This document shows, piece by piece, positions 4,001-6,749 of a stretch of 17,240 bases of DNA. The DNA is from Lachnospiraceae bacterium UBA3645 (GTDB lineage: Bacteria; Bacillota; Clostridia; Lachnospirales; Lachnospiraceae), in contig DFKM01000169.1 of the NCBI GenBank assembly GCA_002373555.1, forward strand, positions 1 to 17,240, read 5' to 3'. A model generated the notes under the pieces. That model did no database searches and had not been told where the DNA came from. It worked only from the letters and a program-made list of their open reading frames with translations. Positions within the stretch are counted from its first letter, which is position 1, and each line of letters begins with the position of its first letter. The position numbers were made by a program, and so were the translations under genes.

Positions 4001-5083
4001 TTATTTATATTTTGCTTCCGCTTCCGCGAGCCACTCGGGATCGGTAAAGTAGTTGATCTTCATGGCGCCGCGGACATTGTTCAGTGTCTGTGCCGCTGTC
4101 TTTTCCGCTGTCTCGCTGCCGGTCATCAGGATGTCACGTACATCGGAGAGCCGGCTCTCCCAGTAATGTCTTCTTTCCCGGATCGGGGCGAGCTCTTCGT
4201 TCATGACATTGTTCAGGAACTTCTTGACCTTCACATCGCCGAGGCCGCCGCGCTGGTAGTGGGCTTTCAGCTCATCAAGATTTGCGTATTCGGGCAGATA
4301 CTCTGCAAAGTACTCGTCCCGGCAGCAGGCATCCAGATAGGTGAACACGGTGTTCCCCTCGAGCTTTCCGGGATCGCTGACCTTCAGATGGTCGGGATCC
4401 GTGAACATGCTCATGACTTTTTTCCGTACATCCTCGGCCGGATCGGAGAGATAGATGCAGTTCCCGAGGGATTTGCTCATCTTGGCCTTTCCGTCCGTGC
4501 CGGGCAGGCGCATGCAGGCTTCATTGTCGGGAAGCAGGATGTCGGGCATCGTCAGCACTTCGCCGTAGGTCGTGTTGAATTTGTGCACGATCTCTCTGCA
4601 CTGCTCCAGCATGGGCGCCTGGTCTTCGCCGACAGGCACGGTCGTTGCATTGAAAGCAGTGATATCTGCCGCCTGGGAGATCGGATAGGTGAAGAAGCCG
4701 ACCGGAATGGAGGCATTGAAGCCGCGCATCTGGATCTCGCTCTTGACGGTAGGATTGCGCTGCAGTCTGGAAACCGTGACCAGATTGGCATAATAGAAGG
4801 TCAGTTCGGTCAGCTCCGGGATCATGGACTGGATGAACAGATTGGATTTTGCCGGATCCAGACCTACGGAAAGGTAATCGAGGGCGACCTCCATGATGTT
4901 CTGGCGCACTTTTTCGGGGTGCTCCGCATTGTCCGTGAGCGCCTGCGCATCGGCGATCATAATGAAGATCTTATCGTATTCGCCGCTGTTCTGCAGTTCG
5001 ACTCTTCTTTTTAAGGAACCCACATAATGTCCGAGATGAAGACGGCCGGTGGGACGGTCGCCGGTAAGTATGATTTTTGCCAT
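4001..5083 (-). CDS. trpS: Tryptophan--tRNA ligase
   Basis: This class Ic aminoacyl-tRNA synthetase charges tRNA-Trp in the cytoplasm. The 360-residue product carries the HIGH-equivalent HLGH at residues 16-19, in TGDRPTGRLHLGH, and KMSKS at 201-205 (GKAKMSKSLGN). GEDQAPMLEQCREI follows the expected tryptophan-binding region, and a helical anticodon domain ends the protein. It resembles the longer TrpRS form common in Clostridia. An ATG 18 bases upstream (5101) has no ribosome site; AAGGAG seven bases before ATG 5083 decides the start. It is transcribed alone from its own promoter (5132-5160) and ends at the bidirectional terminator. The leader of about 40 bases is too short for a T-box. Confidence 0.97.
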   Translation of the reverse strand: MAKIILTGDRPTGRLHLGHYVGSLKRRVELQNSGEYDKIFIMIADAQALTDNAEHPEKVRQNIMEVALDYLSVGLDPAKSNLFIQSMIPELTELTFYYANLVTVSRLQRNPTVKSEIQMRGFNASIPVGFFTYPISQAADITAFNATTVPVGEDQAPMLEQCREIVHKFNTTYGEVLTMPDILLPDNEACMRLPGTDGKAKMSKSLGNCIYLSDPAEDVRKKVMSMFTDPDHLKVSDPGKLEGNTVFTYLDACCRDEYFAEYLPEYANLDELKAHYQRGGLGDVKVKKFLNNVMNEELAPIRERRHYWESRLSDVRDILMTGSETAEKTAAQTLNNVRGAMKINYFTDPEWLAEAEAKYK

Positions 5084-5131
5084 TTTTCTGCTCCTTGTCA
5101 TAGGACGGCTGATAAAGCCGATATCTTAAAC

Positions 5132-5160
5132 ATCATAAATGATAGAGCCCAAAAGGTCAA
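5132..5160 (-). promoter_or_regulatory. Sigma-A-type promoter for trpS
   Basis: Read on the minus strand: TTGACC (5160-5155), exactly 17 bases, then TATGAT (5137-5132). Each hexamer has five of six consensus bases, making it one of the best promoter matches in the window. The predicted start is near 5125, about 42 bases before the trpS ATG. Confidence 0.78.
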
Positions 5161-5250
5161 GGAGGCAGAAGGCGTGGATACATTCGGAAAACCTGCATAC
5201 GAAATATGAAATTCGGAGGAATCAGAACGGGATTTTAACGTCCGGAACCC

Positions 5251-5279
5251 TTGCCCGGGAATGATATCTATGGTATAGT
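5251..5279 (+). promoter_or_regulatory. Sigma-A-type promoter for the NSS transporter
   Basis: TTGCCC (5251-5256), a 17-base spacer, TATAGT (5274-5279). Transcription is predicted to start around 5286-5288, so the RNA would begin at, or within a base or two of, the first strand of the pseudoknot at 5287. This strengthens the view that the folded element is the designed 5' end of the mRNA. Confidence 0.68.
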
Positions 5280-5286
5280 TTTGCTC

Positions 5287-5335
5287 TGACACCGTTCAGG
5301 CGGCCGGCGGTGTCAAATGAGGATCCACCGGCCGC
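5287..5335 (+). promoter_or_regulatory. H-type pseudoknot (or paired-hairpin switch) in NSS leader
   Basis: Stem 1 pairs TGACACCG (5287-5294) with CGGTGTCA (5308-5315), eight perfect pairs. Stem 2 pairs GCGGCCGG (5300-5307) with CCGGCCGC (5328-5335), eight perfect all-GC pairs. The strands interlock in the order S1-S2-S1-S2 with loops of 5, 0 and 12 bases, the geometry of a coaxially stacked H-type pseudoknot. If a pseudoknot does not form, the two stems compete as alternative hairpins; a bulged version pairing GGTG (5309-5312) with CACC (5326-5329) is also possible. There is no T-run after it, so control by termination is unlikely; the ribosome site is downstream at 5347-5353. I do not recognise it as a named riboswitch class. 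Confidence 0.65.
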
Positions 5336-5360
5336 GTTCAGTATATTTAGGAGTTGCAAC

Positions 5361-6749
5361 ATGAGTAAGAAAAGAGAATCGTTTTCCGGATCCATCGGAT
5401 TCGTGCTTGCTGCAGCCGGCAGCGCTGTCGGTCTCGGCAATATCTGGAGATTTCCGTTCCTGGCAGCCAGAGACGGCGGAGGCCTGTTCCTGGTCATCTA
5501 TCTGGTGCTGGCACTGACCTTCGGCTTCACGCTTCTGACGGCAGAGGTCGTGATCGGCAGAAACACAAAGAGCAGTCCGCTGACGGCTTACGGAAAGCTC
5601 AGCAAACGCTTTGGCTGGGTCGGCGCGATTGCGAGCATCGTGCCCTTCATGATCCTTCCCTATTACTGCGTAATCGGCGGATGGGTACTGAAGTATTTCC
5701 TGATCTTCCTGTCCGGCTATGGCCTGGATGCCGCGCAGGACGGCTATTTCGGTAGTTTCATTACTGCCCAGTATGAGCCGATCGTGATGCTGGTCATCTT
5801 CCTCGGGATCTGCGCTTTCATTATTTATAAAGGCGTTGCTTCCGGTATCGAACAGTATTCCAAGATCCTGATGCCGGTCCTGATCCTGCTGGTCATCGGC
5901 ATTTCCGTCTTTGCGCTGACGCTCAAATCCACCGATGCGAACGGCAATACCGTCACGGCCCTGCAGGGCATGAAGGTCTATCTGATCCCTTCCTTTGAGG
6001 GGGTTACCTTCAAAAAGTTCCTGCTGATCGTCATGGATGCCGCGGGACAGCTGTTCTACAGCCTGTCGATCGCCATGGGCATCATGGTCGCCTACGGATC
6101 CTATGTGCCGGATGAAGCCAATCTGGTGCAGTCCATCAACCGCATCGAGATCTTTGATACGGCGGTGGCGTTCCTGGCCGGCGTGATGATTATTCCTGCT
6201 GTATTTGTCTTCATGGGACCTGACGGCATGGCTGCCGGTCCGTCCCTGATGTTCGTATCGCTGCCGAAGGTCTTCGCGGCCATGGGCGGTGCCGGACGCG
6301 TGATCGGAACACTGTTCTTTGCAATGGTGCTCTTTGCTGCCGTGACCAGTGCCATGTCCGTACTGGAAGCCGTTGTTTCCGGACTGATCGATCACTTTAA
6401 GCTGTCCCGTACGAAGGGTACGATCCTGGAGTCGGCGATCGCACTGGCGCTCGGCATCCTTGTCTGTCTCGGCTACAATTTATTCTATTTTGAACTGACG
6501 CTGCCGAACGGTGCGGTCGGACAGATCCTGGATATCATGGACTACATTTCCAACTATGTGCTCATGCCGGTCGTATCGATCGCGACATGTATCCTGGTCG
6601 GCTGGGTGCTGAAACCCGAATTTGCCTTTAAGGAAGCCGGAAAGAACGGCGAGGAGCTTGGAAGAAAGGGCCTGTTCACGCTGATGATCAAATTCGTCGC
6701 GCCGGTCATCCTGTCGGTCCTCCTGCTGATGTCGCTGGGCATCCTGTAA
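5361..6749 (+). CDS. Sodium:neurotransmitter-symporter-family amino-acid transporter
   Basis: This is a Na+-coupled amino-acid importer of the LeuT/MhsT family in the cytoplasmic membrane. The 462-residue product has the family's helix-1 signature GSAVGLGNIWRFPF at about 20-33, with Asn27 and Arg30 at the same numbers as in LeuT, followed by DGGGLF. Helix 8 carries VTSAMS near 328-333, fitting the second sodium site. I count 11 membrane segments, like the bacterial 11-helix members rather than the 12-helix LeuT. The frame extends upstream to 5310, but TTAGGAG at 5347-5353 and the conserved N-terminus choose ATG 5361. The substrate is not readable from sequence. The divergent trpS makes tryptophan or another aromatic amino acid a reasonable guess, no more. 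It stands alone between its promoter and a terminator. Confidence 0.93.
   Translation: MSKKRESFSGSIGFVLAAAGSAVGLGNIWRFPFLAARDGGGLFLVIYLVLALTFGFTLLTAEVVIGRNTKSSPLTAYGKLSKRFGWVGAIASIVPFMILPYYCVIGGWVLKYFLIFLSGYGLDAAQDGYFGSFITAQYEPIVMLVIFLGICAFIIYKGVASGIEQYSKILMPVLILLVIGISVFALTLKSTDANGNTVTALQGMKVYLIPSFEGVTFKKFLLIVMDAAGQLFYSLSIAMGIMVAYGSYVPDEANLVQSINRIEIFDTAVAFLAGVMIIPAVFVFMGPDGMAAGPSLMFVSLPKVFAAMGGAGRVIGTLFFAMVLFAAVTSAMSVLEAVVSGLIDHFKLSRTKGTILESAIALALGILVCLGYNLFYFELTLPNGAVGQILDIMDYISNYVLMPVVSIATCILVGWVLKPEFAFKEAGKNGEELGRKGLFTLMIKFVAPVILSVLLLMSLGIL

Follow-up and report, generated by a model that had tools for sequence, protein, structure and literature searches.

A candidate lineage-specific H-type pseudoknot at the predicted 5′ end of a Lachnospiraceae transporter mRNA

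Described leader structures and the transporter locus

The stabilisers of the ompA and papA mRNAs of E. coli and of the aprE leader of B. subtilis are stable 5′-end structures that leave the ribosome site free downstream, an arrangement that the leader described here would share. They are, however, simple hairpins, whereas in the present leader two stems interlock and, given the predicted start, hardly any 5′ overhang would remain; the stabilising effect of this leader is one that we infer. For B. subtilis, a review (PMC3997798) describes hairpins at the 5′ end, or close to it, as able to stabilise long stretches downstream, and reports that the pyrophosphohydrolase RppH requires at least two unpaired 5′ nucleotides. 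Compact H-type folds also occur in the 5′ leaders of preQ1-I riboswitches, where they act as aptamers (PMC10622847). The preQ1-I fold has a short P1 and a P2 of mixed pairs, whereas in the window (the whole 17,240-nt stretch of DNA analysed here) both stems have 8 bp, the loop letters are not conserved, and Rfam gives no match. The preQ1 type III knot includes the Shine–Dalgarno sequence, whereas the window knot does not.

SAM-II and other pseudoknotted Rfam riboswitches share the general H-type topology. An earlier note on this DNA had asked for an Rfam search, and no family matches: at gathering score, the window and 20 of 110 loci of NSS-family transporter genes gave no leader match, and at E values up to 10 the stretch 5080–5400 gave neither SAM-II nor any of the others, only a frameshift element (E 9.7). 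T-box leaders of amino-acid genes resemble the present one in setting: the downstream gene probably encodes an amino-acid transporter, and an aminoacyl-tRNA synthetase gene lies next to it. A T-box was rejected because no Rfam T-box reached gathering score in the window or the 20 of 110 loci and no terminator was found. Among the literature matches listed, none names a pseudoknot leader of an NSS gene.

The gene behind the leader (5361..6749, plus strand) encodes a sodium-dependent transporter of the NSS family (SNF/LeuT fold) of 462 residues, which scores 97.9 bits against NF037979 (cut-off 50). The best solved relative of the protein is 4us3 (E 1.4e-58), which we take to be MhsT, a hydrophobic amino-acid transporter. 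For comparison, 110 NSS loci were fetched (30 and 80), of which 108 contain the gene start; L012 and L028, where it is missing, were dropped. L001 is the window itself, L003 and L061 lie on the same contig, and so do L004 and L062. The window belongs to a Lachnospiraceae genus shared with genomes G003, which holds L003/L061, and G004, which holds L002.

Divergent from the transporter gene lies trpS (4001..5083, minus strand; TIGR00233 over cut-off), which encodes tryptophan–tRNA ligase. In a survey in which at least 900 nt of upstream sequence were present in 101 of the 108 loci, trpS adjoined the NSS gene only in the three genomes that carry the pseudoknot described below (4 of 110 fetched loci, two of them being one contig). 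The trpS leader has a small hairpin of its own, CGGCTTTATCAGCCG, near its predicted start (window 5106–5120, minus strand), and the G004 trpS leader keeps a hairpin at that place with a different loop. On the transporter side, positions 5317–5364 hold a 15-codon open reading frame (MRIHRPRSVYLGVAT) whose TGA overlaps the NSS start codon as ATGA; the frame is probably accidental. An attenuation leader peptide was rejected at this frame, which lacks Trp codons, shares the reading frame of the NSS gene in L002, and has its ATG changed to ATA in L061.

Geometry and placement of the pseudoknot

On direct reading, the plus strand at 5287–5335 contains two interlocked perfect stems of 8 bp each, with the stems, loops and coordinates exactly as the earlier note had drawn them. 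Stem 1 pairs TGACACCG (5287..5294) with CGGTGTCA (5308..5315), and stem 2 pairs GCGGCCGG (5300..5307) with CCGGCCGC (5328..5335). Loop 1, TTCAG (5295..5299, 5 nt), crosses stem 2, loop 3, AATGAGGATCCA (5316..5327, 12 nt), crosses stem 1, and the junction between the stems is 0 nt. This is the H-type pattern, in which the loop of a first stem pairs downstream within one continuous RNA, and it is present as sequence potential in three genomes.

The window knot is beyond chance. An exact scan of both strands over 17,240 nt returned 5287–5335 as both the sole 8+8 and the sole 7+7 Watson–Crick H-type knot, whereas dinucleotide shuffles of the window (n = 40) held on average 10.5 knots per window at 5+5, 0.83 at 6+6 and 0.025 at 7+7. 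In a genus background of 769,841 nt, scanned with looser loop limits, there were 81 knots at 6+6, 9 at 7+7 and 0 at 8+8; this background consists of 40 stretches of G000 (the genome of the window) and G004, leaves out the contig of the window, and includes the G004 NSS leader, whose stem 2 has fewer than 7 Watson–Crick pairs. For the 82-nt leader of the window, the stacking score of the knot was reached by 0 of 300 shuffles.

The knot also has a fixed place relative to the predicted signals of the gene. A predicted promoter of sigma-70 type, TTGCCC-17-TATAGT (5251..5279, plus strand), is the only plus-strand promoter match within 5081–5400; a TG precedes its −10 hexamer, and the hexamers and most spacer letters are kept in L002 and L061. 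Stem 1 starts 8 nt past the TATAGT hexamer in both the window and L002, and we infer that +1 falls at the first stem-1 pair or within one base of it. The Shine–Dalgarno sequence GGAG (5350..5353, plus strand) follows the end of the knot by 14 nt (15 nt in L002), and the distance from the knot to the ATG at 5361 is 25 nt (26 nt in L002), such that the spacings to the −10 hexamer, the Shine–Dalgarno sequence and the start codon are constant within 1 nt in two lineages. No terminator-like site was found after the promoter within 5081–5400. The placement of the knot at the predicted start of the mRNA, proposed in the earlier note, is thus borne out, as is its observation that the ribosome site lies outside both stems with no terminator downstream.

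In nested ensembles, the bases of the Shine–Dalgarno sequence have unpaired probabilities of 0.30–0.83, and the best nested folds of the window and of L002 have no pairing of this sequence in common. A Shine–Dalgarno switch was dropped as a candidate: in L002 the nested fold engages the GCAGGAG region with 5′ leader sequence, whereas the best fold of the window leaves this region open.

Pairing and substitution among relatives

The NSS orthologs of G004 (L002) and G003 (L003/L061), with protein identities of 95% and 94%, share the promoter and carry a homologous knot written in other letters. The layout of their leaders is TGATGCG-GCTGCC-GCGGCC-CGG-CGCATCG-15 nt-GGCCGT, and this knot is the best H-type fold of each leader, matched by 2 of 300 shuffles in L002 and by 0 of 300 in L061. 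When the 108 NSS leaders were ranked by an H-type scan blind to the pairing of the window, the three knot-bearing genomes occupied the top four rows. The scan that recovered L002 and L061 allowed a junction of up to 4 nt, a loop 1 of up to 9 nt and a weaker energy cut, limits that were loosened after L002 had been read; a stricter scan, limited to a junction of at most 1 nt and a loop 1 of at most 8 nt, found the knot in the window only and nothing in L002 or L061. Shuffle tests covered six leaders, and among the others L074, an unrelated leader with a terminator-like hairpin, beat all 300 shuffles, L006 was matched by 31 of 300, and L062 was without a knot. The ortholog in G006 (L004/L062), whose protein is 83% identical, has a shorter leader and no knot. 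The orthologs of G002 and G005 begin beyond the contig end, and their leaders lie outside the comparison.

When stem 1 of the window is compared with L002/L061, three pairs have two-sided compensatory changes, one has changed on one side, three are identical and one no longer forms. Of the stem-2 pairs, six are identical, one has gone from G–C to G–U and one is broken; 7 of 8 positions are still paired in the relatives, and there is no covariation among the 3 sequences. Compensatory changes in both stems, the test that the earlier note had set for its proposal, are thus found in stem 1 and not in stem 2. Over both stems, 91.7% of positions are paired, compared with 27.7–50.0% when the alignment is slid by 1–3 columns. 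Shuffling letters among the three sequences, a weak control with so few rows, gave as many double changes in 20 of 500 trials and as high a paired percentage in 6. Of the trials in which 20 substitutions were placed at random among the 49 sites, 0.17% kept 14 or more of the 16 pairs and also gave three or more double changes (p ~0.002); for stem 1 alone, with 13 substitutions placed at random, p was 0.007. Because G003 and G004 lie close together, these figures amount to effectively one independent comparison across one deep split.

The rate of change differs along the element. Compared with L002, the window has substitutions at 4 of 5 positions in loop 1, 5 of 12 in loop 3 (9 of 17 for the loops jointly) and 8 of 16 in stem 1; in the NSS gene, 117 of 246 fourfold-degenerate sites differ (0.48). 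Stem 2 is the slowest-changing part of 5287–5335, with 3 of 16 positions substituted (one of 8 in its 5′ strand, two of 8 in its 3′ strand). The junction has grown from 0 to 3 nt and the length of loop 3 has also altered, all between species with transporters that are 95% identical. An exception to this drift is the start of loop 3, where AATGAG is kept in L002 and reads AATAAG in L061; these letters could make minor-groove contacts on stem 1 or could be a binding site. Since the loops and stem 1 drift at a rate near that of fourfold sites and the pairing is kept, selection appears to act on pairing more than on letters. The leader element is real and is probably a selected RNA feature rather than a product of chance, and to that extent the reading in the earlier note gains support from the pairing kept at the homologous place in two relatives.

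Strong matches to R1, a covariance model of stem 1, came from 3 of the 11 genus genomes (E 1.3e-14 or better) and always lay at the NSS leader; the model was built from 3 sequences, these same three leaders, and their matches hold by construction. Elsewhere in the 11 genomes R1 returned only background, with a best other match of E 0.0099. In 299 family genomes, which were searched with stricter filters than the genus and with at most 18 candidates scored per genome, 35 genomes had a match at E ≤ 0.1 among the matches listed, compared with about 30 expected by chance; this search was led by the window itself, and the best other match listed had E 9.3e-4. The upstream stretches of six further NSS genes provided four usable leaders and no convincing knot: L220, L223 and L227 have none, and the best in L222 reaches −15.7, scored without shuffles (L221 was masked and L226 was not anchorable, and both fall outside this result). 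The knot is thus most likely lineage-specific.

Two of these paralog loci, L220 (G000:C47) and L222 (G004:C17), have a terminator-like hairpin (ACCGGTTCT...AGAACCGG) followed by a T run about 10–42 nt before the start of the second NSS paralog, as anchored. Lying directly before the ribosome site, it is possibly an attenuation structure or the terminator of the upstream gene.

Alternative readings and a role at the 5′ end

We tentatively favour a reading in which a lineage-specific, structure-conserved H-type pseudoknot at the 5′ end of the transporter mRNA would act mainly as a physical cap. A quite different account has no RNA element and takes stem 1 for a DNA operator, the inverted repeat TGACACCG-N13-CGGTGTCA at the start site, serving a local repressor. 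An inverted repeat at +1 is a typical operator feature, and one of 67 predicted leaders carries TAGCACTC-N9-GAGTGCTA, which is presumably the CIRCE operator, at that place. Here, however, the arms have changed symmetrically at 3 of 8 positions between close species, and the repeat TGACACC-N13-17-GGTGTCA is found only at the window site in 11 genus genomes (G000 is 63% complete), with no further copy of the window form that might belong to a multi-site operator. The L002 form matches two other places, in G001 and G002, both inside open frames (549 and 262 codons). As it also leaves stem 2 unexplained, we consider an operator highly improbable. It is very unlikely, too, that the pairings are the functionless outcome of chance or decay in a GC-rich intergenic stretch. 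That the knot was lost or never present in G006, that there is one deep comparison, and that the scan was relaxed once L002 had been read would all fit such an origin, but the expectation of 0.025 for 7+7 knots per window and the recovery of the knot at the homologous place in two more genomes (L002 differs from the window at 20 of 49 positions) speak against it.

A serious rival to the knot is a leader that forms alternative ordinary hairpins (stem 1, or a longer one at 5300–5335), in which case the overlap of the stems would be meaningless. In the window, a nested hairpin at 5300–5336 reaches −23.8 kcal/mol, with 0 of 200 shuffles as good (z −4.51), and another at 5286–5319 containing stem 1 reaches −14.8 (3 of 200 as good). 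The knot of the window, at −24.6 (−28.0 with coaxial stacking), is about level with its best nested fold at −26.6, and in L002 the nested fold beats the knot (−19.7 vs −13.5); these are rough estimates in which the knot energies use approximate stacking values and an approximate knot penalty. Covariation confined to stem 1 would also suit hairpins. Yet stems 1 and 2 exclude each other in one molecule unless they are knotted, and L002 and L061 keep both, with the letters of stem 2 changing slowest. The nested folds of L002 and L061 are, moreover, no better than those of shuffles (z +1.05 and +0.81), whereas their knots are better. Ordinary hairpins therefore seem to us unlikely, and the knot would be the main fold. 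Equally to be weighed is a sensory leader in which the knot, as a riboswitch or protein-binding site, would respond to an amino acid by altering mRNA decay or the access of ribosomes. The obvious candidate is tryptophan, given the neighbouring trpS, which is divergent in exactly the three knot genomes; the type of transporter gene, the aptamer role of H-type knots in other leaders, the AATGAG conserved in loop 3 and an ATG spacing held at 25–26 nt are also in keeping with a sensor. An aptamer, however, is expected to hold its loop letters at such a short distance, and here, AATGAG excepted, the loop and junction letters that might form a binding pocket have changed. Nor is there a sign of the expression platform of a riboswitch: the leader has no terminator, the Shine–Dalgarno sequence is outside both stems, and the window and L002 share no pairing of it. 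Given further that Rfam has no match, that no additional copy in the genus rises above background, and that the 299 family genomes show about as many matches as chance predicts, the metabolite- or protein-sensing leader put forward in the earlier note does not find support, and we consider it improbable.

Near-neutral change in the loops and stem 1, the absence of a terminator within 5081–5400, and a Shine–Dalgarno sequence 14–15 nt downstream instead favour a sequence-tolerant protector over a ligand sensor. Rather than a new class of riboswitch, the element is most likely a structural one at the 5′ terminus of the mRNA. In the cap that we tentatively favour, the first nucleotides would be paired in the knot, such that RppH and the 5′–3′ exonuclease RNase J would get no grip on the end, and ribosome binding would stay possible because the knot stops short of the Shine–Dalgarno sequence. 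Drifting letters, a fixed place at the predicted transcript start and a clear ribosome site are together best read as a mechanical 5′ end, with a presumed effect on the life of the mRNA. Several observations weigh against such a cap: the conserved AATGAG in loop 3 would not be needed by a pure cap, the G006 ortholog does without a knot, and stem 1 of L002, taken as an isolated hairpin, does not stand out from shuffles (78 of 200 as good).

Decay enzymes against which a 5′ cap would guard are present in the genus: among four genomes, RNase Y is over cut-off in all four and the RNase J-type family TIGR00649 in three, the missing one being G003, which is 75% complete. Of 67 predicted leaders, 16, including the NSS leader of G004, have a stem at the 5′ terminus, compared with 7.9 in shuffles but with 12 of 67 in upstream controls, and a genome-wide excess of such stems in the genus is unproven. 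In a smaller set of 32 promoter-led leaders, mean z is −1.18 compared with −0.64 for controls, with 6 and 3, respectively, below −2. The window stretch 5286–5330 has a z of −0.71 against letter shuffles.

Exonuclease-resistant pseudoknots in viral RNAs offer a mechanical logic to which that of a knot cap may be likened. By analogy, the knot might cap the mRNA at its very first nucleotide, withstand both pyrophosphate removal and RNase J, and possibly be opened by an amino acid or protein through the AAURAG of loop 3, although we regard this as quite unlikely. If a cap role is correct, an H-type leader pseudoknot need not be a sensor, and a 5′-terminal knot would be a compact, sequence-tolerant means to a longer mRNA life in Firmicutes. 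Kept pairing with free loop letters would be the mark of such a mechanical part, and topology alone would not suffice for naming riboswitches.

Several structures in other loci may be mentioned. L006 and L074, which encode transporters that are 70% and 67% identical, have terminator-like hairpins with T runs shortly after promoter-like sequence in the last 100 nt before the NSS gene. The Clostridiales-1 RNA of Rfam (RF01699) lies beside the NSS gene in 3 of 20 scanned loci (L002:2993–3158, plus strand; L071:3797–3955, plus strand; L076:1715–1843, minus strand) and was not found in the window. In G004 (contig C81), the promoter-led leaders at L183:211 and L183:13082, some 13 kb from each other, each have a long hairpin at the predicted start, AAAGACGTCTTTTGT.../...GGCGTCTTT, which is almost identical in the two.
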